Positions 5,217-21,835 of a stretch of 54,029 nucleotides of DNA are shown here, in pieces. Below the pieces are notes generated by a model. It saw nothing but the letters and a program-made list of their open reading frames with translations. It was not told the origin of the DNA and did no database searches. This DNA comes from an uncultured Bacteroidota bacterium (GTDB taxonomy: Bacteria; Bacteroidota; Bacteroidia; Chitinophagales; LD1). A program made the position numbers and the translations under genes. The stretch lies in assembly GCA_903861145.1 (NCBI GenBank), contig CAIOTH010000127.1, positions 1 through 54,029 on the forward strand, in the 5' to 3' direction. Every line of letters starts with the position of its first letter. The stretch's first letter is position 1.

Positions 5217-5594
5217 ATGGAAATTGAATTAGAATACATTGGGAAAATAATTGTTGATTCGGCGTTCAAAGTTCATAATACACTGGGGCCCGGGTTGCTA
5301 GAAAAAGTTTATGAAACGTGCGTGGCCCATGAATTAACAAAGGCAGGATTAAAAGTACAAAGGCAATTGGATATCCCTATTTTTTACGATGGGATTGAAT
5401 TTAACGAAGGTTTTCGTCTTGATATCTTGGTTGAAGGAAAGGTAATTATTGAAATTAAAGCTATTGATGCTGTAAATCCGATTTGGGAGGCCCAAATAAT
5501 TAGTCATTTAAAACTGATGAACAAGAAACTAGGATTCCTTATAAACTTTAACGTACCAGTGATAAAAAAAGGGATACGAAGGTTCGCAAATTAA
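5217..5594 (+). CDS. GxxExxY family protein
   Basis: This 125-residue protein carries the family-defining GPGLLEKVY (about residues 24-32, the G-x2-E-x2-Y core). It also has the conserved RLDILVEGKVIIEIKA segment (about 67-82), whose Asp and Glu-x-Lys resemble a PD-(D/E)xK nuclease core (D69, E79, K81). Its function is not established, and a nuclease activity is only inferred from the fold. The gene fills the space between two inverted copies of a 16-bp repeat. It separates miaA from the MFS gene and has the look of an inserted passenger. Confidence 0.9.
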   Translation: MEIELEYIGKIIVDSAFKVHNTLGPGLLEKVYETCVAHELTKAGLKVQRQLDIPIFYDGIEFNEGFRLDILVEGKVIIEIKAIDAVNPIWEAQIISHLKLMNKKLGFLINFNVPVIKKGIRRFAN

Positions 5595-5608: not shown

Positions 5609-5635
5609 TATTTTGTATTCTTAGTGCCTTTGTGG
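5609..5635 (-). repeat. Right copy of inverted repeat flanking the GxxExxY gene
   Basis: CTTAGTGCCTTTGTGG at 5620-5635 is the exact reverse complement of 5169-5184. The flank TATTTTGTATT continues the symmetry imperfectly. The repeat overlaps the first possible start codon (GTG at 5632) of the MFS gene. Confidence 0.8.
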
Positions 5636-6879
5636 CAAGCAATAATGTGAAACACATAGTTCAGAAATATCTTTCAATACCGCGTATTATCATTTACCTA
5701 ATGATGATAGATGTTTCTATTCAGTTTATTAATGCGGCTTTTACGCTGCTGCTGAATTACGAAATGCTTGACCATGGGTTTAAGGATTACGAAATAACCT
5801 CGATGGTGGGCAATCGTTATCTCTCCGTTTTGTTATGTGCTTTCCCGTTGGCTATTATTGCCAAAGGCAAAAAACTAAAGCCCTTCCTATTAGCGGGCTC
5901 CATCCTCTCTCCTATTGTGGCGTTGCTGTTAATTTGGGGTATACACACGCACAATACCGAATTGATTAGAACCTTAATGTCGTTGTGGGGAGCTGCGTTT
6001 TCGTTAGTGCAGATATTAGTGCTGCCCTATATGCTGTTGAATGGAAGTAAAGAGCACGAAACTGAGTCTATAGCTTTGTTCTTCTCAGCAGGAAACTTCA
6101 CTCTGATAATTGTTGGGTTGTTCAGCTATATACTTCCGTTATTTCAAAAGGCCTTTTCAACTGAAGTGCTGCTTATTATATACTCGCTCATCGGATTTAC
6201 CGGAGTTTACTTTGTTCAAAAGCTGCCGGACGAGGAAAACATCGGCACAAAAATTCCGTTGGCCAATTTGCATAGCGATTATGATTGGGCACTCATTTTT
6301 CAGGCTGCTATACCCACCTTTATTATTGCTTTTGGTGCGGGCTTTACCATACCGTTTATTAACCTGTTTTTTAAAAATGTGCATGGTATGGAAGCGGGGC
6401 ATTTTTCGTTGATGAATTCGATTGCTTTTGGATTAGTAGTTGTAACCGCCTTTCTAATTCCCGAGATAAAAAGACGGCATGGCTACCAAGTAGCGATAAC
6501 GCTGATTCAGTGTTTTGCGATTTTGGCTTTATTCATTATGGGTACAACCGAATGGTATAAGGAAATGCCAATTGCGGTAGTAATTGCCGTGGTAGCGTTT
6601 ATAGTGAGGCAGCCTTTAATGAATATGGCCGGGCCAATGACCTCGGAACTGACCTTGAATTATGTGGGCGAAAAAAACCGCGAAATGATATCGGCTATTA
6701 ACGCTGCTATTTGGAGTGGTTGTTGGTTTGCCAGCGCCAAGATTTTTTCGATTTTGAGGGAAGAGGATATTGCTTACTCTAACATCATATTTATTACTGT
6801 AGGATTCTATATTATCGGTGTGGCGTGGTATTATTGGCTAATTAAAGCACACGAAAAGAAAATAGCCAACCATGGTTAA
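5632..6879 (+). CDS. MFS transporter
   Basis: This 415-residue hydrophobic protein has about 12 predicted membrane segments in two halves, split by a cytoplasmic stretch near residues 195-215 (KLPDEENIGTKIP). This is the layout of a major facilitator. The substrate is unknown. The start is uncertain: GTG at 5632 lies inside the flanking repeat, a second GTG is at 5647, and the first ATG (5701) falls within the first membrane helix and is less likely. The 3' end overlaps the next gene by 8 nt, so the two are probably co-translated. Confidence 0.85.
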   Translation: MASNNVKHIVQKYLSIPRIIIYLMMIDVSIQFINAAFTLLLNYEMLDHGFKDYEITSMVGNRYLSVLLCAFPLAIIAKGKKLKPFLLAGSILSPIVALLLIWGIHTHNTELIRTLMSLWGAAFSLVQILVLPYMLLNGSKEHETESIALFFSAGNFTLIIVGLFSYILPLFQKAFSTEVLLIIYSLIGFTGVYFVQKLPDEENIGTKIPLANLHSDYDWALIFQAAIPTFIIAFGAGFTIPFINLFFKNVHGMEAGHFSLMNSIAFGLVVVTAFLIPEIKRRHGYQVAITLIQCFAILALFIMGTTEWYKEMPIAVVIAVVAFIVRQPLMNMAGPMTSELTLNYVGEKNREMISAINAAIWSGCWFASAKIFSILREEDIAYSNIIFITVGFYIIGVAWYYWLIKAHEKKIANHG

Positions 6880-7384
6880 GATAGGATTAATGAGCGATAC
6901 CCACAGCTACCTCGATCCCAAAATATTGGAGGTTTTTAAGGATGTAGATGAAATATGGCATGCAGGCGATATTGGTACACTAGAATTATGCGATGAGCTA
7001 AAGAAGTTTAAGCCGTTTTATGCCGTTTACGGCAATATCGACGATAAAGACATAAGGATTGAATACCCCCTCAATCTTGAATTAGAGAGGGAGGGATTTA
7101 AAATACTTATTACCCATATCGGCGGTTACCCGGGCAATTATGAGCCTAAAGCCAGGCGAAAAATTGAAGAGATAAACCCAGATATTTTTATTTGCGGGCA
7201 TTCGCACATTTTAAAAGTGATGCGTGATGAAAAACGTGGCAATATGGTGGTTATGAACCCGGGCGCAGCGGGTACGCAGGGGTTTCACAAAATAAAAACG
7301 GTGTTACGCTTTACATTGAATAATAAGAAGATTGAAAATTTGGAAGTGGTAGAATTGGGGAAAAGAGGGGAGATTATTAGTTAA
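6872..7384 (+). CDS. YfcE/MJ0936-type metallophosphoesterase
   Basis: This 170-residue enzyme of the calcineurin-like phosphodiesterase superfamily shows all the metal motifs in order: SDTHS (8-12), HAGDIG (30-35), YGNIDD (52-57), THIGG (81-85) and CGHSH (110-114). The single domain and short length match the YfcE/MJ0936 group, which hydrolyses small phosphodiesters in vitro. The physiological substrate is not known. It overlaps the MFS gene by 8 nt. Confidence 0.92.
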   Translation: MVKIGLMSDTHSYLDPKILEVFKDVDEIWHAGDIGTLELCDELKKFKPFYAVYGNIDDKDIRIEYPLNLELEREGFKILITHIGGYPGNYEPKARRKIEEINPDIFICGHSHILKVMRDEKRGNMVVMNPGAAGTQGFHKIKTVLRFTLNNKKIENLEVVELGKRGEIIS

Positions 7385-7442: not shown

Positions 7443-8261
7443 ATGGAAAAATCGGTTCAACAGGATTTATTGAAAAAGGCGTTTAGCATTAAAAAGCGCT
7501 TTTTGGGTATGTACAAAGCTGCCAATGCGGGGCACGTTGGTTCTTCTTTATCGGTTGCTGAGATAATAACCTTTGTGCGTTTTAACTGGATGAGCGATAA
7601 TGATGAGATTATTCTATCCAAAGGGCATGCCGCAGCATCCATTTATTCGATGCTTGCGGAAGAGGGTATTTTAAGCGAAGAGGATATAAAGACTTTCTAC
7701 AAAAACAATACTTACCTGGCGGCCCACCCGCCCGTAAATAAATTAAAGAGAGTGCCTTTTGCGACAGGGAGTTTGGGTCACGGGCTTTCAATTGCGGCCG
7801 GGTTGGGTATGGCTCAAAGGCTTAAAAAATCGGACAAGAGGATTTTCTGTATTACATCGGATGGGGAAATTAATGAGGGCTCTACCTGGGAGGCGGCTTT
7901 GTTTATAGCCCACCATAATTTAAATAATGTGGTTTGGTTGGTAGATAGAAATATGTTGCAGGGGCTGGGCAGAACAGAAGACGTTATGAAGCTTGACCCC
8001 CTGGATAAAAAAATAGAGGCGTTTGGGTTTAATGTGATAATGGCGGATGGACATAGTTTCCATTCGTTGGAAGGGGCCAAGGAAAAGGCTCTAAAATCAA
8101 ATTTGCCAACCGCGATTATTTGCAATACCACCAAAGGCAAAGGCTGGAAATTATACGAGGATAAGTTGGATTCCCACTATTTACCTATGAAAGATAACCA
8201 GCATGATGTAGTGCTAGCCGACGTTGAAAAAGATTACAATCATCAAATCAGCCAACTTTAG
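7443..8261 (+). CDS. Transketolase-like enzyme, N-terminal (TPP-binding) subunit
   Basis: This 272-residue protein corresponds to the N-terminal half of transketolase. It has GHVGSSLSVAEI (about 29-40), LSKGHAAAS (58-66), TGSLGHGLSIAAGLG (108-122) and the thiamine diphosphate motif SDGEINEGSTWEAA (138-151) closed by VDRN (167-170). The usual GDG of the motif reads SDG here, a variant I associate with transketolase pairs in surface-polysaccharide clusters rather than the pentose phosphate enzyme. The partner subunit follows after 3 nt. TAATATTG, a -7-like box, lies 7 nt upstream of the ATG. Confidence 0.93.
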   Translation: MEKSVQQDLLKKAFSIKKRFLGMYKAANAGHVGSSLSVAEIITFVRFNWMSDNDEIILSKGHAAASIYSMLAEEGILSEEDIKTFYKNNTYLAAHPPVNKLKRVPFATGSLGHGLSIAAGLGMAQRLKKSDKRIFCITSDGEINEGSTWEAALFIAHHNLNNVVWLVDRNMLQGLGRTEDVMKLDPLDKKIEAFGFNVIMADGHSFHSLEGAKEKALKSNLPTAIICNTTKGKGWKLYEDKLDSHYLPMKDNQHDVVLADVEKDYNHQISQL

Positions 8262-8264
8262 AAT

Positions 8265-9158
8265 ATGCGCGTAGAATTTGCTGATTCAATGATTAAGTTT
8301 TTCGATACTCACCCGAAAATGGTATTCATTACCGGCGATTTGGGGTATATGGCCCTTGAAAAAGTGCGGGAAAGGTTTGGCGAAAAGTTTATTAATGCCG
8401 GTGTTGCTGAGCAGAACATGGTTACCGTGGCTGCAGCTATGGCACATGAAGGTTTTATCCCTTGGCTATATAGCATCTCGCCTTTTGTAACACTCCGTCC
8501 CTACGAGCAAATACGGAACGATGCCTGTTTGCATGATTTGCCAGTTAAATTGGTTGGTAATGGCGGTGGTTATGGATATGGCATTATGGGCGCAACCCAC
8601 CACAATATTGAGGATATAGGGGCCATGCGCCTGTTGCCCAATATGAGGGTTTATGTGCCTTTTACCGCCAGCGATGTTGAGCAAAGCATTGAACAAATGC
8701 TGGCCGACCCACATCCAAATTATTTGAGGTTAAACCAGGGAGCCAAAATTAAATATGAGGTTGCTCCATTTACACAATGGAGAAAAATTAAATCGGGAAC
8801 AAAGGGAACCGTGGTAGGCACTGGGCCGGTAGTGGAAAATATATGCAACCTGGAAATTGCGGAAGACCTGGAGATTTGGGTGGTGAGTGTCTTCCCTATC
8901 AAAGAAATTCCGGCGGAATTAATTGCGTCTATTAACTCAACAAAAAAACTGATTACCATTGAAGAGCACGCAGGGGAGTGCGGGTTACGCGAAACGCTAT
9001 CGTACCATATCATGAATCAGTTAAGCAGCCCTATCAAAATGCTTGCACTTTCGGCTTCGGGCTATATAAGCGGCAAATATGGCGACCAGAAGTGGCACCA
9101 GGCCGAAAACAACCTGGGGGGCGAGGGTTTAAAGCAACAGTTACAGGCTTTTATGTAA
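8265..9158 (+). CDS. Transketolase-like enzyme, C-terminal subunit
   Basis: This 297-residue second subunit carries the pyrimidine-binding and C-terminal transketolase domains. ITGDLGY and FINAGVAEQNMVTVAAAMA (about 47-65) contain the conserved catalytic Glu that activates the cofactor. YGYGIMGATHHNIEDIGAMR (about 103-122) follows, and the C-terminal domain has GTGPVVEN and TIEEHAGECGLRE. With the preceding protein it should form one heteromeric thiamine enzyme moving two-carbon units. Its position immediately upstream of an epimerase-glycosyltransferase fusion points to sugar-precursor synthesis for a surface glycan rather than central metabolism. Confidence 0.93.
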   Translation: MRVEFADSMIKFFDTHPKMVFITGDLGYMALEKVRERFGEKFINAGVAEQNMVTVAAAMAHEGFIPWLYSISPFVTLRPYEQIRNDACLHDLPVKLVGNGGGYGYGIMGATHHNIEDIGAMRLLPNMRVYVPFTASDVEQSIEQMLADPHPNYLRLNQGAKIKYEVAPFTQWRKIKSGTKGTVVGTGPVVENICNLEIAEDLEIWVVSVFPIKEIPAELIASINSTKKLITIEEHAGECGLRETLSYHIMNQLSSPIKMLALSASGYISGKYGDQKWHQAENNLGGEGLKQQLQAFM

Positions 9159-9213
9159 GCTTTACATTTCATTTCTTCAAATCTCTCTGGTTTTTCTACA
9201 TATTTACAGCTTA

Positions 9214-11145
9214 ATGTCTTTACAGGAAAAAATACAAGCAGAGGTTTTAAAACTTGAAGGCCCTATAGTGGTTTTCGGGGCGGGAGGGTTCATTGGGGCT
9301 AACCTTATTCGCACTATTTTACAGTACCGTAACGATGTTTTTGCTGTTACAAGCAAACCGTTTATACCCTGGAGGCTTGATGATATTAGCCCAAAAAACA
9401 TTCTGCACTGCAACATTATTAAGAAAGACCAGGTAGAGAACTTGTTTAAAAAGCATCGTTTTAAAACGATTTTCGACCTTGTAGCCTATGGCGCATATAG
9501 CAAGCAAAGCAACGTTGACCTGATTTACGAAACCAACTTTATTGGCCTGCTAAACCTGCTGGAAGTTTCATCGCAGTTTAGTATCAGGGCTTTTGTGCAT
9601 GCAGGTAGTTCGTCGGAATATGGACTGAATGCTTCGGCACCTAAAGAGGACGACCCTTTGGAACCGAACTCGCATTATGCAGTTACCAAAGTTGGTGCGG
9701 CGCACATGATAAAGTATTACGGCACTTTAAAAGAAATGCCGGTTGCTAACTTGCGCTACTATTCAATTTTCGGGCCGTTTGAGGAGCCGGACAGGCTTAT
9801 TCCTCAATTAATTGATAAGGGTATGAAGGGAACTTATCCTCCCCTCGTTCAGCCCGATATTTCGAGAGATTTTGTTTTTGTTGATGATGCGGTATTAGCT
9901 ACTCTTTTATCGGCGAATAAGATTCAGCATATTATGGGTAAGTCGCTCAATATTGCGAGCAACAAAAAAACTACCATTCGTGATATTGCCTCAGCCATTA
10001 AAGAGATTTTCAATCTTTCGGCTGATCCTGCCTGGGGTGACATGCCTAACCGTAAATGGGATTTGAAAGAATGGTATGGAAACGCATCGCTGGCTAAAGA
10101 ACTTTTAGGCTGGCAAAATGAAACATCGTTAAAAGACGGCCTGCAGCAAACGTATGAATGGCAGAAGAATTACGCCATGCCATTGTACGAAAAGAAGCTG
10201 GTTCAGGACAAAATACGGCACAAGTTAAGTGCAGTTATTGCCTGCTATAAAGATGCACAAGCTATTCCTTACATGCACGACAGGCTGACAAAAACGTTTA
10301 ATAAAATTGGTGTTGACTACGAGATAATTTTTGTAAACGATTGCTCGCCCGATAACACGGCTGAGGTATTACAGAAATTGGTAGATGAAGATGACCATGT
10401 AATCGCAATTGAGCACTCCCGAAACTTTGGTTCGCAATCTGCTTTCCTTTCGGGTATGGAAATTTCGACCGGTGATGGAGTTATTTTGCTGGATGGCGAT
10501 TTGCAAGACCCACCTGAGTTGATTGAACAATTTTATGCAGAATACCTAAAAGGTTTTGATGTGATTTATGGCCGCAGGGTTGCCCGTGAGGGAAACCAAA
10601 CATTGGTTTCGTTTTATAAAATGTTCTACCGATTGTTCCGCAGCGTTAGTTATGTGCCTATGCCTTTAGATGCGGGAGATTTTAGCCTGATGGACCGTAA
10701 AGTGGTTAACGAGCTTATAAAGTTGCCAGAAACCGACCAGTTTATGCGAGGCCTGCGCGCCTGGGTAGGCTTTAAGCAAACCGGTGTAGATTATACCCGA
10801 CCTGAGAGAATGTTTGGTGTAACTACGAATAACTGGCGCAAAAATATTGCATGGGCGCGTAAAGCTATTTTCAGCTTCAGTTATGTGCCATTGGAATTGC
10901 TGACGTATTTAGGAGTGCTACTTACGGTACTTTCGTTTGTGGCAATTATCATTCAAATTGTTCTGTACTTCGTAAAGCCGGGCAATCCGCATGGCATTAC
11001 AACTATTATAGTACTGATTTTGTTATTTGGCGGATTGCAGATGCTGGGTATTTCAACTTTGGGCGAATACCAGGCTAAGATTTTAGAGGAGTCGAAGAGA
11101 AGGCCGAAGTTTATTAGAAAGAATATTTACAGAAAGGTTTATTGA
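9214..11145 (+). CDS. Fusion: NAD-dependent epimerase/dehydratase + GT2 polyprenyl-phosphate glycosyltransferase
   Basis: This single 643-residue frame contains two enzymes. Residues 1 to about 315 form an extended short-chain dehydrogenase: Rossmann motif GAGGFIGANL, SSSEYG, catalytic YAVTK, then the sugar-binding part. Residues about 335-545 form a GT2 domain of the GtrB / dolichyl-phosphate mannose synthase type, with SAVIACYKD, FVNDCSPDNT, HSRNFGSQSAF and the metal-binding LLDGDLQDPPE. Two membrane helices follow (about 558-583 and 590-612), as in GtrB. The likely product is a polyprenyl-phosphate-linked sugar made from a nucleotide sugar that the N-terminal half has altered. These are normally separate proteins. 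The stop overlaps the next ATG by 1 nt. Confidence 0.92.
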   Translation: MSLQEKIQAEVLKLEGPIVVFGAGGFIGANLIRTILQYRNDVFAVTSKPFIPWRLDDISPKNILHCNIIKKDQVENLFKKHRFKTIFDLVAYGAYSKQSNVDLIYETNFIGLLNLLEVSSQFSIRAFVHAGSSSEYGLNASAPKEDDPLEPNSHYAVTKVGAAHMIKYYGTLKEMPVANLRYYSIFGPFEEPDRLIPQLIDKGMKGTYPPLVQPDISRDFVFVDDAVLATLLSANKIQHIMGKSLNIASNKKTTIRDIASAIKEIFNLSADPAWGDMPNRKWDLKEWYGNASLAKELLGWQNETSLKDGLQQTYEWQKNYAMPLYEKKLVQDKIRHKLSAVIACYKDAQAIPYMHDRLTKTFNKIGVDYEIIFVNDCSPDNTAEVLQKLVDEDDHVIAIEHSRNFGSQSAFLSGMEISTGDGVILLDGDLQDPPELIEQFYAEYLKGFDVIYGRRVAREGNQTLVSFYKMFYRLFRSVSYVPMPLDAGDFSLMDRKVVNELIKLPETDQFMRGLRAWVGFKQTGVDYTRPERMFGVTTNNWRKNIAWARKAIFSFSYVPLELLTYLGVLLTVLSFVAIIIQIVLYFVKPGNPHGITTIIVLILLFGGLQMLGISTLGEYQAKILEESKRRPKFIRKNIYRKVY

Positions 11146-11561
11146 TGAAGACGCTTTATATCATAGCTTTTCTACTATTAATAGCGAGACCATGCAATTG
11201 CCAAACAGCTAGCGGATCACCTAAATTGAATTCTTCAGACTCCATCTATACTTTTGTTGAACAAAACCCTCAATTTCCGGGAGGTGATGGGGAACTAATG
11301 AGGTTTTTGCAAAAAAACCTGCAATACCCATCAGATAAAAAAGATGATGAAATAGTTTGTGGAAGAATAGCAGTACGCTTCATAATTGACGTCGATGGTT
11401 CGGTTAAAGATCCCAAAATGGTCAAGGCATGTGAACCTCGCTTAGATGCAGAGTTAATTAGAGTAGTAAATTTGCTTCCAAAATTTAAACCAGGCTACCA
11501 GAACGGTAAACCTGTAAAAGTTTATTTTACGCTCCCAATTTCGTGCATTAAACTTCAATAA
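11145..11561 (+). CDS. Secreted protein with TonB C-terminal domain
   Basis: This 138-residue protein has a signal peptide (about 1-20, ending NCQ). Residues about 40-138 form a TonB C-terminal-like domain: PQFPGGDGELMRFLQKNLQYP, then GRIAVRFIIDVDGSVKD, then PKFKPGYQNGKPVKV. The ATG at 11145 overlaps the upstream stop (TGATG). An alternative TTG one codon earlier is less likely. It has no proline-rich spanning region, so it is a periplasmic or lipid-free stand-alone TonB-domain protein of the type common in Bacteroidota and need not energise a receptor. Its role in this glycan block is unclear. Confidence 0.85.
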   Translation: MKTLYIIAFLLLIARPCNCQTASGSPKLNSSDSIYTFVEQNPQFPGGDGELMRFLQKNLQYPSDKKDDEIVCGRIAVRFIIDVDGSVKDPKMVKACEPRLDAELIRVVNLLPKFKPGYQNGKPVKVYFTLPISCIKLQ

Positions 11562-11581
11562 GAAATCAGAATTAGATACAA

Positions 11582-12292
11582 ATGGCAAGTATAGTTGATG
11601 ATAGAGGTTATAACCAGGGCTTCAGGCTGGTTAAAAGTACAGAGGTAAGAAACCGGCGCAGGACGGATATGCTCATTTCGGAGATGAGCGAGCTGGAAAC
11701 CAAAAGTGTAATGGACGTGGGTTGTGGCACCGGTGAAATTGCATTTTGGATGGCCGAAAAAACGCCGGCTAAAGTTTTAGGAACGGACCTTTGTGTGCCG
11801 TTTATTGAAAACGCCAGCAAAAAATACCAGCTCCCTAATTTGCGATATGGCGTGCTTGACTTTAACAAAGCAGATGAATTTAAGGGCGAAACGTTTGACT
11901 ACATAGTAGGCAATGGCATTTTACATCACCTGTATTATCACCTTGATGAAGCGCTTGTTAATATGCGCAACCTTTTAAAAGAAAACGGCAAGCTTATTTT
12001 TTTAGAGCCTAATCTTTTAAATCCGTACGTATACCTGATTTTCTCTTACCAATCGTTGCGAAAAGTTGCCAAACTTGAGCCGGATGAAATGGCATTTTCA
12101 AAAAGGTTCATAACCGAAAAACTAAATAGGTTAGGGTATAAAGATGTTAAAGTAGAATACCGTGATTTTTTACTGCCAGGCATACCTGCTTTTTTAATTC
12201 AGCCATCGATAATAATTGGCGATGTGGTTGAAAAAGTGCCTTTGGCGAACAAGATGGCCCAATCGCTTTTTATTACCGCTACAAGGGCCTAA
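11582..12292 (+). CDS. Class I SAM-dependent methyltransferase
   Basis: The 236-residue protein has the Rossmann methyltransferase signature MDVGCGTGEIAFWMA (about 40-54), an acidic residue ending strand 2 (LGTDLC), and motif III/IV region VGNGILHHL (about 109-117), with KLIFLEPN further on. It is most like the Methyltransf_11 group that methylates small molecules, lipids or sugars. Lying between the GT2 fusion and the GT-C glycosyltransferase, it may methylate the sugar or lipid built by the block. That role is inferred from position only. Confidence 0.88.
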   Translation: MASIVDDRGYNQGFRLVKSTEVRNRRRTDMLISEMSELETKSVMDVGCGTGEIAFWMAEKTPAKVLGTDLCVPFIENASKKYQLPNLRYGVLDFNKADEFKGETFDYIVGNGILHHLYYHLDEALVNMRNLLKENGKLIFLEPNLLNPYVYLIFSYQSLRKVAKLEPDEMAFSKRFITEKLNRLGYKDVKVEYRDFLLPGIPAFLIQPSIIIGDVVEKVPLANKMAQSLFITATRA

Positions 12293-12348
12293 CGGTTAAC
12301 CGTTGAATACAGGAAAATCTTAGATTCGTCCCGTTAAAATCCCTGTAA

Positions 12349-14352
12349 ATGGCCAAGCAGTATAAAAAACCTCAACCAGTAGCCGAGAAAAAAGCTGAAC
12401 CTAAAAAAGAGGTTGTTCTTACACCCCTTATTCCTGAGCCGTTAGCTAAAAAGATATTTATTGGTTTTGCCGCAGCTTTACTATTGCTGATGATAGGTGT
12501 AAGCCATCAGTACGGTGTATCGGGCGATGAGAATTTTCACCGGGAGTACGGACACCATATCATCAACTTTTACACCTCTTTGGGTAAAGATACAACGGCA
12601 GCTTCTTCAAGCAACAATGGGCCTGACTCACTGATGGTTTTTTACGGTGGGCTTTATGATGGCACTGCTACTATTTTATCGAAAGCGCTACCATCTGTAA
12701 ACGAGTGGAACATACGGCACTTATGGAATTCGATATTTGGCTTTATGGCCATGCTTTGTGCCGGGCTTGTGGCCGTTGAAGTTGCAGGATGGCAAGCGGG
12801 TTTAATAACGCTGGTGTTTATGGCGTTTTCGCCGAGGTTTTTTGGCGAGAGTATGAATAACCCCAAAGATATTACCATGGCAGCGGGGTATATGTTGACT
12901 TACGTTTTTATCATTAAATTTTTGAAGCAATTACCCCGGCCTACGTTAAAAACGACTGTTGGATTAGGTATAAGCATTGGGGTTGCTATGGGCATCCGTA
13001 TTGGTGGTTTATTGCTGATACCTTACCTGGGCCTGTTTTGGCTTTTAGCCATGAGTGGTATTTACGGGTTTGGCAAGCTTTTCGACTTTTCGAAGTTTGG
13101 TGAAAATGTTTGGCCAAGCTTTAAGTTTGTTGTGTTGGCCTCGGCTTTAGGTTACTTAGTGAGCCTTATTTTTTGGCCTTACAGCTTAATGAATCCGTTT
13201 ACCCATCCACTCGAAGCTTTGACGGTTGCTGAAAAATTTCCCGTTAGGATAGCAGTACTTTTTCAAGGAAAACTGATACAATCAACCGAAGTGCCGTGGA
13301 ATTATGAGCCGCAGTGGATGTCGATAACCACCCCGCTTTTTGGTTTAATAGGGATGGCTCTTTCCTTTCTGCTAATTCCATCTATGAAAAAAAGCGGCAA
13401 ATTATTGATGCTTGCATTTTTGTACTTTACTATCCTGTTCCCTCTAAGTTATATTATTTACAAAAAGGCGGTTTTATATGATACCATGCGCCACTTCTTT
13501 TTTGTGTACCCAAGCATCATTATCCTTTCGGGATTGGCGTTTAATTACCTGCTGAGCCGATTTTCTAAAAACGCAAAATATGTTGTACTTGCTGTAATGG
13601 TTTTACTGGTGTTTCTACCTGCCAGGTTTATGTTTGCCAACCACCCTAACGAGTATGTTTATTTTAACGAATTGGAAGGGGGCATTAAGGGGGCATTCGG
13701 TAATTACGAAACAGATTACTACATGAACTCCATTAAGCAATGTGCCGATTGGATGAAAGAGCATGAAAACCTGAAACAAAGACGTAGCGATGGAGGCAAA
13801 TTAAGGCTATACTCGAATGGTGTTTCACCCATTAATGCTTATTTTAAGAATGATACCGCAGATGTTAGTACGGGCTACGTAAGCTATAGGGCAAGAGCTG
13901 AAAAGGATGCGGACTATGAAATATTATACAGCCGGTTTGTAGACCGTGAACTTTTGTTGAGTGGTTGCTTTCCGCCAGAGCAGGCTGTTTACACCGTTTA
14001 TGCTGATGGTGTGCCACTTTCGTGCGTAATTAAGAAAACTGATAAGAGCGACTATTTAGGAATTGAAGCGATGAAGCATGGTGATTATGAGATGGCTGTT
14101 AACTTGTTGGGCCCATATTGCCAAAAATACCCTAAGGCCGATGCCGCCCTTTTTAACCTTGGCCTGGCATACCTACAATCCGCAAAGGATGCGGCAAGGG
14201 TTCAAAAGGGAATAGATGCTTTAACCCAATGCCTTAATTTGAACCATGATAACCTTTACGTTATTAATGTTCTGGGCCAGGCCTATGGAATGATTGGCAA
14301 TAAGAGCCAGTCGGACTATTTTAAGGAAATGTTGAGGCAAAAGCAGCAATAG
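12349..14352 (+). CDS. GT-C (GT39/PMT-like) membrane glycosyltransferase with TPR tail
   Basis: This 667-residue protein has a lysine-rich cytoplasmic N-terminus and a first helix near residues 37-55. The loop GDENFHREYGHH (about 61-72) follows; its DE pair is placed where GT-C enzymes of the PMT/ArnT family keep the catalytic acid. About ten more membrane helices run to about residue 430. The soluble C-terminal part (about 430-667) ends in TPR-like helices (about 580-660). Such enzymes transfer sugars from polyprenyl-phosphate donors on the outer face of the membrane, which matches the donor type expected from the GT2 fusion upstream. The acceptor is unknown. Confidence 0.82.
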   Translation: MAKQYKKPQPVAEKKAEPKKEVVLTPLIPEPLAKKIFIGFAAALLLLMIGVSHQYGVSGDENFHREYGHHIINFYTSLGKDTTAASSSNNGPDSLMVFYGGLYDGTATILSKALPSVNEWNIRHLWNSIFGFMAMLCAGLVAVEVAGWQAGLITLVFMAFSPRFFGESMNNPKDITMAAGYMLTYVFIIKFLKQLPRPTLKTTVGLGISIGVAMGIRIGGLLLIPYLGLFWLLAMSGIYGFGKLFDFSKFGENVWPSFKFVVLASALGYLVSLIFWPYSLMNPFTHPLEALTVAEKFPVRIAVLFQGKLIQSTEVPWNYEPQWMSITTPLFGLIGMALSFLLIPSMKKSGKLLMLAFLYFTILFPLSYIIYKKAVLYDTMRHFFFVYPSIIILSGLAFNYLLSRFSKNAKYVVLAVMVLLVFLPARFMFANHPNEYVYFNELEGGIKGAFGNYETDYYMNSIKQCADWMKEHENLKQRRSDGGKLRLYSNGVSPINAYFKNDTADVSTGYVSYRARAEKDADYEILYSRFVDRELLLSGCFPPEQAVYTVYADGVPLSCVIKKTDKSDYLGIEAMKHGDYEMAVNLLGPYCQKYPKADAALFNLGLAYLQSAKDAARVQKGIDALTQCLNLNHDNLYVINVLGQAYGMIGNKSQSDYFKEMLRQKQQ

Positions 14353-17080: not shown

Positions 17081-20000
17081 ATGAGAAAACTTTACTTTTC
17101 GTTATTACTTTTAATCACTTCGGTAACCGTATTTTCGCAAGGCAATTTTACTGTTTTAGGCAACGCCTCTCAACTACCACAGTGTAATTGCTTTCAACTT
17201 ACACCCAATGCCGGTGGCCAAGCAGGGGCTTTTTTCCAAAATAATACCATTAACCTTAACAACTCGTTCGACTTTACTTTCAGGAATTTTTTTGGATGTA
17301 ACGGAGCCAGCGGGGCGGATGGCGAAGCCTTTGTTTTAACAACCAACCCGAATGGATTAGGAAACCAGGGAGAAGGTTTGGGTTATGGGGGGTCAAATCA
17401 GCCTTGTTCATTTGCTGTTGAATTTGATACCTGGCAAAATGGGGACCATAATGACCCGGGTTTTGACCATACCGCCTATGAATCGGGTGGTAGTGTTGAC
17501 CATAATGTTGTGGGGCCGGTTTCGGCAACTGCCAGCGCAAGTAACCTGGATGATTGCCAATACCATACTATAGAAATTGTTTGGAACGCCAATACGCAAA
17601 CCTTATCGGATTATGTGGATGGATCTTTGCGGATAAGCCAACAAATGACTGGTTTTATTAACGGTTACATGTGTGGAAACCCGATAGTAAACTGGGGGTG
17701 GACGGGCTCGACCGGTGGGGGATGGAATTTGCAAACCGTATGCATGCGTAATTTTTCGACATGGGTGGCAGGTATTAATTTCGAAAGCTGCTCGACAACA
17801 ATACAGTTTACTGATGTTTCTACCAGTAACCCGGGCAACGTTGCATCGTGGAATTGGATTTTTGGAGATGGAACAACTTCTGCGCTTCAAAATCCATCGC
17901 ATACTTATCCAAGTACCGGAACATACAATGCCAGCCTTATTATAACCAACGTAAATGGATGCTCGGATACATCTGCGCATCCTGTAGTAATTGCTGCGCC
18001 CATTGTTTTTACGCCAACTTTAACTAACCCGTTGTGTAATGGGGGCTTAAACGGTAGTATAGTGTTATCGGAAACGGGGGGATTTGGATTGCAGGCTAAC
18101 CCAGGTGGTTATCATTATACCTGGAGCAACCCGGCTGGTGATAGTACTACGCTTGCAGGTGTTGGGGCCGGAACATATACTGTTTCGTGTACCGATGGCA
18201 TTTGCAGTGCATCGGGCCAATATACGCTTAACCAGCCACCGGCGCTTACTGCAACTACATCATCAACAGCAGCTAGTTGTAGTCAGAATAACGGTTCATG
18301 TACTATAACTATTTCGGGCGGCACGCCTCCTTACAATGGTGTAACATGGGCCGGTTTATCGGGAACAACAACGGGTAATACAACAACGGTAACGGGGCTT
18401 TTTGCCGGAAATTACATTGCCAATTTTCATGATGCCAATGGATGCTCGGCAATTTTGCAGTATACCGAAACGGTGGCCTCTTTGCCTTGCGGGATTAACT
18501 CGACATCATCCAGTACGAACGTAACGTGTTTTGGGGGTAGTAACGGCAGCGTGACCCTTACTGTAACCGGGGGAAATGCACCCGAAAATATTACCTGGAC
18601 CAATGCGGGAGGAACTACGGTTGGGACCGGTGCCACAGTAAGCAATTTGCCCGCCGGAATCTATAATTATAGTTATACCGATGCCAACGCCGGGCACGCT
18701 TTTACCGGTACGCTAACTATTACCCAGCCAGGTGCGGCTACTGTTATTAATCTTTCTACAACCAATATATCATGTGCCGGTGCCAATAACGGACAAGCGA
18801 TAGTTTCAGTAACCAGTGGCGGAGCTGCGCCGTTTAGTTATTCGTGGAGTGGTGGGAACCCTAATAACCCCGTGGCGAGTAACCTTGGGCCGGGTGCTAT
18901 AACAGTAACTGTTACTGACGCGAATAGTTGTACCTCTACAGCTACCGGTAATATTTCGAGTGTGCCGGCGTTGCAATTGAACATTACTACAACGAACAAT
19001 GGTTGTAACCAATATAATAACGGTAGCGCAACTGCCAACGTTACCGGTGGTACAACACCATACGGTTATTTTTGGAATAATATTTCGACGGCACAGACTG
19101 ATTTGAGTCTTGCGGCGGGAACGTACACAGTAACGGTTACTGATAGTAACTCATGTACCATTACAGGAACTGCGACGATATCATCATCGCCACCATTTAT
19201 CAATACTGTTGACTCGACCAATGTAAAGTGTTATGGTGGAACTACCGGGAGTGTTACCGTTAATTCATCGGGTGGAGCAACGCCTTATGTGTATAGCTGG
19301 AGTTCGGACTCGACAGGTACAGTTAACCCGGCTTTGGTGGGGGCTAACCTTGCTAATTTGAAGGCGGGTGAATACCTGTTAACCGTTACTGATGCACACG
19401 GATGTACTTTTTTTGATAGCACTTTTGTGCAACAACCAGCCGCACCACTATCGGTTGTTACTTCAACTAAAAACATTAATTGCACCGGGGGGCATACAGG
19501 TGTAATAGCAGTAATAGTGAGCGGAGGAACACCAACATATAGTTATGCCTGGACCGGTGGAGTTTCAACCACAGACTCGGCAATAAATTTGGCGGCCGGA
19601 ACTTATGTTGTGACGGTTACTGATTTGAATAGTTGTACTTTAGATTCATCGTTTACATTAACGGAACCTGCAGTTGCACTGACCCTTACCCCCAACCAAA
19701 CAAATTTAAGTTGCTACCAAAGCAACGACGGGGTAGCCAGAATTACAGCAGCGGGGGGAACTACTCCTTATACTTATGTTTGGACATTGAGCCCTAGCGT
19801 GGTGGATTCGGCAACCGGGCTTATTGCAGGTAACTATGGCGTATTAGTAACCGATAATAACCAGTGTACTGCGGCACAGGCGTTTGTTATTACACAGCCT
19901 ACGCAAATTGTGCCTACACCAACAGTGGTTAATGTGATGTGCTTTGGCCAAACTAATGGTTCAATCAATATTAATACCATTGGAGGGACGGGTGGATACA

Positions 20001-21835
20001 CTTATATATGGAGCCCTAACGTAAGTACTACGGCATCGGCTACAAACCTGGGTTTTGGCACTTATGATGTTACAGTTACCGATGTTACACTTTGCTCAGT
20101 ATCCTTCTCATCAACCGTTACACAACCTGCGGCTGCGTTAACAGCTAATTTTATAGTTAATAATGTGCCATGTTTTGGCACCAGTACTGGGTCGATACTT
20201 GTAAGTGCTACAGGTGGCACAGTTCCATATACTTACAGCTGGAACCCGAATGTTTCAGGTGCGGATTCAGCGGTTAATCTCCCGGTTGGAAATTACGCCG
20301 TAACCGTAACCGATTTAAATCAATGCAGCGTTAACTCATCGTTTACACTTACACAACCTGCAACTGCTTTAACGATTGATTCGACACAAACCGATTTAAC
20401 CTGTTATGGAAGTAACAACGGCGCTGCATACGTAACTGCAAGTGGTGGAACCAGCCCATATAGTGATGCGTGGTTCAACAGCGCAAGCGCACTGATTAGC
20501 ACAACAGATTCGGCTACAGGATTGGCGGCCGGCACATATAGTGTTTTAGTAACGGACAGCAATCATTGTATTGCCACACTTGTTTACACGATTACACAAC
20601 CAACCCAAATTGTACCTACAGCGGCAATAACGAATGTAAATTGCTTTGGACAATCGACCGGAGCAGTAACCATTAATACGGTTGGGGGTGCAGGGGGTTA
20701 TACTTACACATGGAACCCTAACGTAAGCACTACGGCTACGGCAACAAACCTTGCTGCGGGGCTTTATGATGTTACGGTAACAGATGCTACGACATGCACG
20801 GCATCGACCTCGGCCAATGTGACACAGATAGCTCAAATTAATTTGACTACATCAACAATACCGGTTAATTGTAATGGCGGAAGTGCCGGTTCGGCCATTA
20901 CAGTATCTGCTACAGGTGGAACCCCGGGATATAGTTATACGGCCAGTGCAGGTGGTGTACCTATTACCAATACAACCGGCCAGTTCAGTAATATACCTGC
21001 TGCTACTTACGTGATTATTACTACCGACCAGAATGGTTGCGCTGATACAACCTCGGCTATAGTTAGCCAACCTAACCCTTTGACCTATGCGCTGCAATTT
21101 GCATCGCCTACATGTAGTTATTTAACCAACGGGGAGATTATTATTAATGCTACCGGTGGCAATCCGAGCTATACTTTTTCGGGAACTAATCTTACCACAA
21201 ATTCGGCTGGATTATTTACCGGTTTGGCTGCCGGCACTTATGCTATTACGATAACCGATTCGAAGGGCTGCGATACAACTGCTACGGCAACACTAATTAA
21301 GCCGGATACATTATTGGTAAGTGTGGCTCCAACATCGGGCCAGGTTAAGTTGGGCGATAGTTTAGCACTTACAACTACTACGAACCAAACCGGAACAATT
21401 ACTTATGCATGGACCCCGGACTTTGGACTTAGCTGTTATGATTGTGCTGACCCTGTGTTTAACGGTGTTTATTCGCAACCGTATAAAGTAACGGTTACCA
21501 ATGATAGCGGCTGCGTGGCCACCTTTGGTTTTGAAGTAACAGTGATACCGAATTACGACTACTTTATACCTAACGCATTTACGCCAAACGGTGATGGCAA
21601 AAACGATTATTGGCAAATGTATGGCAACATGTCGGCGCTTAAGCAGGTTGATGTGATGGTGTTTGACCGTATTGGCGAAAAAGTTTTTGAAAGCACCGAC
21701 ATTAACTTTAAGTGGGATGGCACCTTTAAAGGCCAGGCAGCACCGCTTGGGGTGTATGTTTACGCTATTAAGCTGGTGTGGTTGGATAACCATTCGACAG
21801 ATGCAGTAAAGGGAACTATTACCTTGCTGAAATAG
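17081..21835 (+). CDS. Giant T9SS type B adhesin: L-type lectin, PKD, 14 SprB repeats
   Basis: This 1584-residue surface protein begins with a signal peptide (about 1-19). An L-type lectin-like domain follows (about 20-230; FAVEFDTWQNG and HTIEIVWNANTQ are typical strands). A PKD domain runs from about 235 to 308 (WNWIFGDGT, NPSHTYPSTGTY). Fourteen SprB repeats of about 75-82 residues follow, each with a Cys near its start, a GGTxPYxYxW strand and a (G)TYxVTVTDxxxC strand. After an Ig-like segment (LSCYDCADPVFNG) comes the type B gliding-associated sorting domain (FIPNAFTPNGDGKND, VMVFDRIGEKVFES). Similar proteins carry gliding or adhesion functions. Repeats 7-9 and 10-12 form a higher-order duplication. 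A paralogue follows downstream. Confidence 0.93.
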   Translation: MRKLYFSLLLLITSVTVFSQGNFTVLGNASQLPQCNCFQLTPNAGGQAGAFFQNNTINLNNSFDFTFRNFFGCNGASGADGEAFVLTTNPNGLGNQGEGLGYGGSNQPCSFAVEFDTWQNGDHNDPGFDHTAYESGGSVDHNVVGPVSATASASNLDDCQYHTIEIVWNANTQTLSDYVDGSLRISQQMTGFINGYMCGNPIVNWGWTGSTGGGWNLQTVCMRNFSTWVAGINFESCSTTIQFTDVSTSNPGNVASWNWIFGDGTTSALQNPSHTYPSTGTYNASLIITNVNGCSDTSAHPVVIAAPIVFTPTLTNPLCNGGLNGSIVLSETGGFGLQANPGGYHYTWSNPAGDSTTLAGVGAGTYTVSCTDGICSASGQYTLNQPPALTATTSSTAASCSQNNGSCTITISGGTPPYNGVTWAGLSGTTTGNTTTVTGLFAGNYIANFHDANGCSAILQYTETVASLPCGINSTSSSTNVTCFGGSNGSVTLTVTGGNAPENITWTNAGGTTVGTGATVSNLPAGIYNYSYTDANAGHAFTGTLTITQPGAATVINLSTTNISCAGANNGQAIVSVTSGGAAPFSYSWSGGNPNNPVASNLGPGAITVTVTDANSCTSTATGNISSVPALQLNITTTNNGCNQYNNGSATANVTGGTTPYGYFWNNISTAQTDLSLAAGTYTVTVTDSNSCTITGTATISSSPPFINTVDSTNVKCYGGTTGSVTVNSSGGATPYVYSWSSDSTGTVNPALVGANLANLKAGEYLLTVTDAHGCTFFDSTFVQQPAAPLSVVTSTKNINCTGGHTGVIAVIVSGGTPTYSYAWTGGVSTTDSAINLAAGTYVVTVTDLNSCTLDSSFTLTEPAVALTLTPNQTNLSCYQSNDGVARITAAGGTTPYTYVWTLSPSVVDSATGLIAGNYGVLVTDNNQCTAAQAFVITQPTQIVPTPTVVNVMCFGQTNGSININTIGGTGGYTYIWSPNVSTTASATNLGFGTYDVTVTDVTLCSVSFSSTVTQPAAALTANFIVNNVPCFGTSTGSILVSATGGTVPYTYSWNPNVSGADSAVNLPVGNYAVTVTDLNQCSVNSSFTLTQPATALTIDSTQTDLTCYGSNNGAAYVTASGGTSPYSDAWFNSASALISTTDSATGLAAGTYSVLVTDSNHCIATLVYTITQPTQIVPTAAITNVNCFGQSTGAVTINTVGGAGGYTYTWNPNVSTTATATNLAAGLYDVTVTDATTCTASTSANVTQIAQINLTTSTIPVNCNGGSAGSAITVSATGGTPGYSYTASAGGVPITNTTGQFSNIPAATYVIITTDQNGCADTTSAIVSQPNPLTYALQFASPTCSYLTNGEIIINATGGNPSYTFSGTNLTTNSAGLFTGLAAGTYAITITDSKGCDTTATATLIKPDTLLVSVAPTSGQVKLGDSLALTTTTNQTGTITYAWTPDFGLSCYDCADPVFNGVYSQPYKVTVTNDSGCVATFGFEVTVIPNYDYFIPNAFTPNGDGKNDYWQMYGNMSALKQVDVMVFDRIGEKVFESTDINFKWDGTFKGQAAPLGVYVYAIKLVWLDNHSTDAVKGTITLLK
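19441..20830 (+). repeat. Higher-order tandem duplication of a three-SprB-repeat block
   Basis: SprB repeats 7-8-9 (about 19441-20129) resemble 10-11-12 (about 20130-20830) more than their direct neighbours. Both blocks share SSFTLTxPA between the first and second repeat, a TxLxCYxSN opening of the second, TQPTQIVPT entering the third, and a CFGQ then GGYTYxWxPNVSTTAxATNL core in the third. The copies are diverged, so the duplication is old. Confidence 0.75.

Follow-up and report, generated by a model that had tools for sequence, protein, structure and literature searches.

What does a transketolase do among genes for sugar modification and glycosylation? The question is raised by a block of six genes at positions 7443-14352 of a 54,029 nt contig (CAIOTH010000127.1, assembly GCA_903861145.1) from an uncultured Bacteroidota bacterium of the order Chitinophagales; the whole stretch analysed is called the window below. 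A preliminary description of this DNA had read the block as a system in which a split transketolase builds an altered sugar, a fusion of an epimerase with a GtrB-type glycosyltransferase activates it and a glycosyltransferase of the GT-C type transfers it. The present analysis supports a joint function of pair and fusion and shows an altered pocket of the transketolase, while the role at the surface and the product are parts that we infer. A better description of the block is that of a core of three genes, the two transketolase halves (TktN and TktC) and the fusion, accompanied by variable partners. To judge from sequence comparison, this trio probably makes a sugar of an unusual kind, perhaps with a carbon branch, that is destined for the cell surface. 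More specifically, it may be a module for a modified lipid-linked sugar donor in which a two-carbon unit is added to a keto-sugar to give a branch, a reading to which we assign a probability of roughly 0.45.

The three-gene core and its conservation

The six open reading frames (ORFs) of the block are intact from start to stop and lie on the + strand, spaced in block order by 3, 55, −4, 20 and 56 nt. The preliminary description was accurate as to the common strand and the small gaps (56 nt at most), the split transketolase, the epimerase and GtrB-type domains joined in a single chain, and the presence of methyltransferase and TonB-domain genes. TktN (7443-8261, 272 aa) is the half that binds thiamine diphosphate (ThDP; Transketolase_N, 105 bits) and TktC (8265-9158, 297 aa) the pyrimidine-binding and C-terminal half (Transket_pyr, 98 bits; Transketolase_C, 35 bits). 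Their nearest solved chains are the two chains of the split-chain transketolase of Carboxydothermus (6yak for TktN, E 2.5e-47; 6yaj for TktC, E 4.8e-28). The third gene (9214-11145) codes for a chain of 643 aa in which an extended short-chain dehydrogenase/reductase (SDR; about residues 18-320; Epimerase, 133 bits) is followed by a family 2 glycosyltransferase (GT2) of the GtrB/PgfS type (about residues 337-640; Glycos_transf_2, 94 bits) with C-terminal hydrophobic stretches. Residues 331-639 match Synechocystis sll0501 (5ekp) with an E value of 7.4e-62 over nearly the whole length of the latter; this similarity, a DGDLQDP-type motif and the C-terminal membrane part place the GT2 half among GtrB-type enzymes. 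Residues Y155 and K159 of the SDR, D427 and D429 of the GT2 and the stretch Q431-E435 are invariant in 28 aligned fusions. Two loci, L026 (9001-10940) and G160:C317:56274-58213, have the fusion in two overlapping reading frames that cover about residues 1-250 and 240-643, owing either to a frameshift or to a true split between SDR and GT2. Homologues of its halves are also found as separate adjoining SDR and GT2 genes (about 27%) in Roseibium and Palleronia, where rfbF, rfbG and genes for an aminotransferase-type enzyme and a methyltransferase precede them.

Co-retention of the three genes was followed in an order sample of 298 genomes (30 of the window's family and 268 others). The fusion is present in 25 of them (cut by a contig end in one and read as two overlapping frames in another), and block-type TktN and block-type TktC are present in 26 each. 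All three occur together in 23 genomes and any part in 27; genome G030, with a weak match to fusion residues 18-634 (28%, internal stop), was left out of the counts. Four carriers are each without one part: three are genomes of 69-80% completeness, and the fourth (G121, 98%) lacks TktC. Any part of the trio is found in 26 of the 30 genomes of the window's family and in 1 of the 268 outside it. Six genomes keep all parts on separate contigs, with the pair apart from the fusion in G027, G007 and G040 and TktN apart from TktC and the fusion in G053, G172 and G145, which argues for a shared task beyond inherited gene order. Fisher tests of co-occurrence in the order sample give P values of 5e-32 to 4e-34, which ignore kinship and are descriptive only. 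A phylum sample of 395 genomes contains the fusion in two, the window's own included (E at most 1e-120).

A pattern-based, non-exhaustive scan of genome contigs yielded 35 fusion loci, many of them cut by contig ends, so that partner counts are lower bounds (neighbour counts exclude matches under 60 residues, and the locus listing excludes those that are shorter than 80 residues and span less than a quarter of the query). TktN was detected at 26 of these loci, TktC at 30 and at least one half at 31, while two of the other four begin inside the fusion gene. The gene order, whose conservation the preliminary description had left to be established, is conserved. There is good support for TktN, TktC and the fusion as the conserved core and for their joint action.

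The pair is not the only transketolase of its genome, as the preliminary description had considered it might be. This genome (4.7 Mb, 174 contigs) has three Transketolase_N genes, belonging to the block pair and to two further pairs on contigs C145 and C45. The C145 pair retains all five of the residues F434, H461, D469, Q474 and G262 of Escherichia coli TktA, that is, a standard pocket, and the block pair was accordingly rejected as the housekeeping transketolase. The C45 pair is not of the block type: it is without the double histidine (HH) of the block motif described below and several compared columns differ, some perhaps through misalignment. Its compared residues differ from those of both other pair types of the genome, and it lies in a glycan-related cluster (L151, G000:C45, 5529-14084) where cytidylyltransferase-like, aminotransferase-like and NeuB-like genes are recognized by eye.

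The trio is also found in distant relatives. Eight loci carry a fusion 54-57% identical to that of the window (matches covering under 75% of the query were dropped); they belong to Rudanella, Arsenicibacter and Siphonobacter, all Cytophagales, to a 'Cytophagales bacterium', to an unplaced Bacteroidetes metagenome-assembled genome and to Flavobacterium sp. SUN052. The gene order is TktN-fusion-TktC in six of the eight and TktN-TktC-fusion-methyltransferase in one, and the remaining locus ends after the fusion. Four proteins encoded just upstream of TktN were scanned at these loci, three of which pass the PMT_2 cut-off of 26.1 bits (47.1, 41.9 and 41.2 bits) and one of which fails (20.1 bits); three scanned downstream proteins gave no match to a Pfam family. 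On plasmid pMaq22A_1p of Methylobacterium aquaticum, TktN, TktC (41%) and the fusion (48.7%) are consecutive genes with the expected Pfam domains, followed by an ORF without Pfam match and then by a methyltransferase gene on the other strand. A tree was built from 31 pairs, including 19 block pairs hand-picked for spread and leaving out the pairs of Solidesulfovibrio, C145, Streptomyces and E. coli AptAB. All 19 block pairs, that of Methylobacterium among them, fall into one group (support 100/100). The long branches of E. coli TktA (5.76) and of the C45 pair (3.06) make the backbone of this tree unsafe.

It could be argued that an ordinary pentose-phosphate enzyme stands beside unrelated glycan genes and that the synteny reflects descent only, as a YfcE gene and a major facilitator superfamily (MFS) gene upstream of the block also stay with TktN among near relatives. 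These two genes, however, were not detected beside the trio in the eight 54-57% loci, and inspection by eye does not show them in Methylobacterium. The trio is moreover kept when unlinked and a pair with a standard pocket is present on C145, so that such an explanation is strongly disfavoured and has very little probability left.

Active site of the pair and its relatives

The pocket was compared over the 19 block pairs, with residues numbered as in E. coli TktA. Residues H26, H66, H100, D155, N185, H261 and E411, which we take to be ThDP-binding and catalytic, are all retained in 19/19 pairs. The same pairs uniformly carry the changes F434I, H461G, D469M, Q474H and G262Y; H461 and D469 are acceptor contacts in the transketolases of E. 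coli and yeast. Motifs were aligned after merging identical sequences (39 TktN and 42 TktC rows). The SDG variant of the ThDP motif noted in the preliminary description (SDGEINE in the window, 7857-7877), in which G154 is replaced by S, is fixed in all 39 block-type TktN rows. The new tyrosine of TktN directly follows the catalytic histidine H261 (SHYLP, 8172-8186). In TktC, the changed acceptor-pocket motif reads GYGIMGATHH in the window (8574-8603; LGEDGPTHQ is the E. coli counterpart), YGIMG(A/S/G)(T/S)HH in the whole set of 42 Bacteroidota block rows and YGVMGPTHH in Methylobacterium.

Four pairs outside the block have I434, G461, H474 and Y262 in common with it. They come from genomes G127 (locus L139) and G145 (L138), from Paenibacillus cellulosilyticus and from Azospirillum (L129). 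Three of the four are beside RfbF and RfbG, and two of these, G127 and G145, also beside RfbH. In L139 (G127:C134, 5483-12330) and L138 (G145:C106, 4842-11714) the pair lies behind genes for a glucose-1-phosphate cytidylyltransferase, a cytidine diphosphate (CDP)-glucose 4,6-dehydratase and RfbH, all over the NCBIfam cut-offs; an SDR and an FkbM-type methyltransferase are also present, and these clusters are yersiniose-like. On a plasmid of P. cellulosilyticus (L127, 6097-8004) a single-gene fusion of SDR and TktN, followed by the C half, stands behind rfbF and rfbG. Clusters of the yersiniose pathway place a YerE-type, chain-adding ThDP enzyme next to the CDP-sugar genes. At locus L153 (G103:C97, 8992-10800) a nucleotidyltransferase gene, RfbG, a DegT-type gene and an SDR-like gene precede an acetolactate-synthase-type ThDP enzyme, and comparison of this layout with L138 and L139 suggests that a transketolase may have replaced YerE in the latter two. 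The altered acceptor pocket together with relatives in CDP-keto-sugar clusters makes a branched or otherwise altered sugar more likely. Two of the four members of the window's family without the trio (G103 and G127) carry a CDP-glucose dehydratase cluster with a ThDP enzyme, numbers too few to be weighed. Farther off, the TktC of Solidesulfovibrio has I434 and G461 as in the block but THW in its motif, and is encoded a few genes from pseB and pseC.

The fourth pair with a like pocket, on a plasmid of Azospirillum argentinense (L129, 5159-6921), is found beside genes for B12-binding radical S-adenosylmethionine (SAM), cobalamin-dependent and methyltransferase proteins. These surroundings, which are not sugar-nucleotide genes, would suit a real module whose transketolase acts on a lipid, acyl or amino-acid acceptor of the same glycan. 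The other three of the four like-pocket pairs are in sugar-nucleotide clusters, one of them with SDR and TktN fused in Paenibacillus, and we consider an acceptor of this kind rather improbable.

The pocket can also be compared with that of AptAB, the split apulose-4-phosphate transketolase of D-apiose breakdown. The gene of E. coli SE15 carries the name aptB in PMC13001218, where clusters of this type are shown to let other strains of E. coli grow on D-apiose. AptB of SE15 has lost H461 and D469 and has the HH, as in the block, but shows A434, N461 and H262 instead of the block residues I434, G461 and Y262. Apiose clusters differ further by an FGGY kinase and a sugar transporter, neither of which was noticed by eye next to the block or at the eight listed loci; the FGGY-linked pairs form a separate group of the tree (98/99), E. 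coli AptAB itself being outside the tree set. In its reaction AptAB forms or cleaves a tertiary alcohol at a ketone. As transketolases are reversible and AptAB works in the cleaving direction, the block enzyme might cut a two-carbon unit from a keto-sugar, so as to shorten or remodel its chain before loading. The CDP-linked relatives occupy the place of a YerE-type enzyme that adds a chain, and we consider the cleaving direction improbable.

Sugar supply, partner genes and the proposed route

If the branching reading is right, TktN and TktC would form one ThDP enzyme transferring a two-carbon ketol (glycolaldehyde) unit. The acceptor would probably be a ketone on a nucleotide-activated sugar, and the product a sugar that bears a two-carbon branch and a tertiary alcohol. 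The SDR half may act on the same sugar, either by making the keto group or by reducing the ketone of the new branch, and the GT2 half would load the finished sugar onto polyprenyl phosphate. A flippase would turn the lipid over and a GT-C enzyme, here possibly the product of 12349-14352, would attach the sugar outside. The methyltransferase may add a methyl group to this sugar or to the glycan.

The least secure element of this route is the acceptor. In 24 of the 27 genomes that carry any part of the trio RmlB is over its cut-off, and deoxythymidine diphosphate (dTDP)-4-keto-6-deoxyglucose should therefore be available. CDP-4-keto-6-deoxyglucose is unsupported as acceptor in the window's genome, where no match to the CDP-glucose 4,6-dehydratase model TIGR02622 is over the cut-off. 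The best match to guanosine diphosphate (GDP)-mannose 4,6-dehydratase in this genome reaches 347.4 bits, below the cut-off of 415.

The last gene of the block (12349-14352) encodes a protein of 667 aa. Its match to PMT_2 is borderline: against a cut-off of 26.1 bits it scores 22.7 in the protein scan and 27.1 when the genome is searched. The AlphaFold2 model (mean pLDDT 72) resembles in Foldseek oligosaccharyltransferase OST/STT3 (1.8e-6), ArnT (8.6e-5) and AftA (4.6e-4), the C-terminal tail gives matches to tetratricopeptide repeats, and residues D60 and E61 of the first loop are invariant in 9/9 aligned homologues. A GT-C fold is thus supported by the structural model, in agreement with the GT-C enzyme with a DE loop of the preliminary description. 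A homologue of this type is present at 9 of the 35 fusion loci; that the protein belongs to the same system was also part of that description, and its joining to the pair and fusion is moderately supported. The search for PMT_2 in the whole genome gave 22 stretches, 18 of them over the cut-off, the block's own included.

The GtrA-type flippase, which the preliminary description had not seen, is equally missing from the genome at large: PF04138 has no match in it, and 7 of 14 control genomes are positive. A flippase of another type is possible. The 22 PMT_2 stretches in 4.7 Mb, found without a GtrA match, point to much possible lipid-linked glycosylation in this organism. The class I SAM methyltransferase gene (11582-12292, 236 aa; Methyltransf_12, 60 bits) has counterparts at 16 of the 35 fusion loci and is a frequent partner, more loosely attached than the core. 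The small protein with a TonB C-terminal domain (11142-11561, TTG start; TonB_C, 42 bits) was listed earlier as part of the system and probably is not, but rather accessory or unrelated: it is the least conserved member of the block, detected at 6 of the 35 loci, and was rejected as a core member.

Just upstream of TktN, a gene for a YfcE-type phosphodiesterase (6872-7384, + strand; TIGR00040, 73.5 bits) is a frequent neighbour among near relatives (13 of the 35 fusion loci) and is not part of the core. The MFS gene and YfcE (5632-7384; also in L141 and L152) remain immediately upstream of TktN even at loci where the latter is separated from TktC and the fusion. Elsewhere in the window, a small protein of the PD-(D/E)XK nuclease superfamily (5217-5594; PDDEXK_3, 135 bits) is encoded between miaA and the MFS gene, and a repeat-rich protein of 1584 residues (17081-21835), whose C-terminus resembles by eye those of gliding or type IX-secreted proteins, is possibly a client of surface glycosylation.

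Several observations weigh against the branching reading. Since 26 of the 27 carriers are in one family, co-retention is partly shared descent, and a sister relation of the block and CDP-linked pairs is left without support by a tree that does not resolve it. There is no dedicated sugar dehydratase within the block. TIGR02622 is over its cut-off in 2 of the 27 genomes with any trio part, so that the CDP route of the relatives cannot be copied to the trio, and RmlB is common across bacteria, which weakens its presence as support. The Azospirillum pair has its like pocket without RfbF or RfbG in the 12.8 kb read. At the active site, HH without the ED of the E. coli motif is also found in one Streptomyces pair and in the FGGY-linked pairs, and part of the signature may thus mark small non-housekeeping transketolases in general. 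The position of R520 is not settled in the alignments, and the phosphate-binding serine S385 is a gap in all split rows, that of C145 included, for which reason its loss was dropped as a block-specific change. With 22 PMT_2 stretches in the genome, the GT-C protein of the block need not be the user of the donor. Finally, among solved structures the SDR is nearest to 4-epimerases, and the LegB, RmlB and GalE models match it far below their cut-offs.

The resemblance to 4-epimerases would suit a pair that is a normal transketolase for sugar phosphates and provides a precursor such as a pentulose, heptulose or tetrose phosphate, with the fusion epimerizing and loading an unbranched rare sugar. 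The retention of the residues for ThDP binding and catalysis, which include H26, H66 and H100, is compatible with this, and heptoses and pentoses are common in surface glycans. Against it stand the replacement of H461 and D469 in 19/19 block pairs, both of which the C145 pair retains, the two other transketolase pairs of the genome, and the fact that no sugar kinase or nucleotidyltransferase is seen by eye next to the trio in the eight loci whose genes were listed one by one. We consider supply of an unbranched sugar unlikely, and addition of a two-carbon branch remains the preferred reading.

Relation to known systems and significance

The nearest solved chains, those of Carboxydothermus (6yaj/6yak), retain the acceptor motif EDGASHQ, unlike the block. 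The Pgf system of protein glycosylation in Streptococcus mutans follows the logic of epimerase, GT2 and GT-C; it is not known to include a transketolase. Among NCBIfam models PgfS fits the GT2 half of the fusion best (NF047588, 240.7 bits) but the score is far below the equivalog cut-off of 500. A GtrB-type synthase and a GT-C enzyme are shared with the GtrA/GtrB/Gtr* glycosylation systems of Shigella and Salmonella, including the GT136 pentofuranose variant, as defined in PMC11127046. In contrast to these, the block has no GtrA match in its genome and no flippase seen among its genes, and its synthase shares a chain with an SDR and is linked to a transketolase pair.

The YerE/YerF system of yersiniose has in common with the block a ThDP enzyme and an SDR beside glycan genes. 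It differs in that YerE is of the decarboxylase superfamily (PMC12247030), the one to which acetolactate-synthase-type ThDP enzymes belong, whereas the block has transketolase domains. The split transketolases of miharamycin and amipurimycin, from the secondary metabolism of Streptomyces, have been proposed to add a hydroxyacetyl group to a keto-sugar, and are likened to the block pair by description alone. The same 2025 review calls their function 'still pending', proposed and untested in vitro, and mentions 13 further split-transketolase candidates, all from Streptomycetes and none characterised in vitro (PMC12247030). A search of open-licence papers found no description of a module made of a transketolase pair and an SDR-GtrB chain. 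Its parts are of known kinds; their union, a transketolase pair and an SDR-GtrB chain kept as a set in Bacteroidota and present on an alphaproteobacterial plasmid, appears to be the new element.

A wider proposal, which we put forward tentatively and with somewhat less confidence than the branching reading itself, is that transketolase-type enzymes of Bacteroidota and of at least one alphaproteobacterial plasmid, and not decarboxylases of the YerE type, add two-carbon branches to sugars of surface glycans. The trio would hand the branched sugar to polyprenyl phosphate through the SDR-GtrB chain, elsewhere such enzymes would replace YerE, and I434, G461, H474 and Y262 would be their marks. The trio and the CDP-linked pairs offer concrete candidate enzymes with a residue signature, by which the conversion of a ketone into a tertiary alcohol by natural transketolases becomes testable; if it holds true, such enzymes would be useful for making chiral tertiary alcohols. 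If the reading is right, the bacteria that carry the trio would make carbon-branched sugars by a new route and feed lipid-linked extracytoplasmic glycosylation from a new source.

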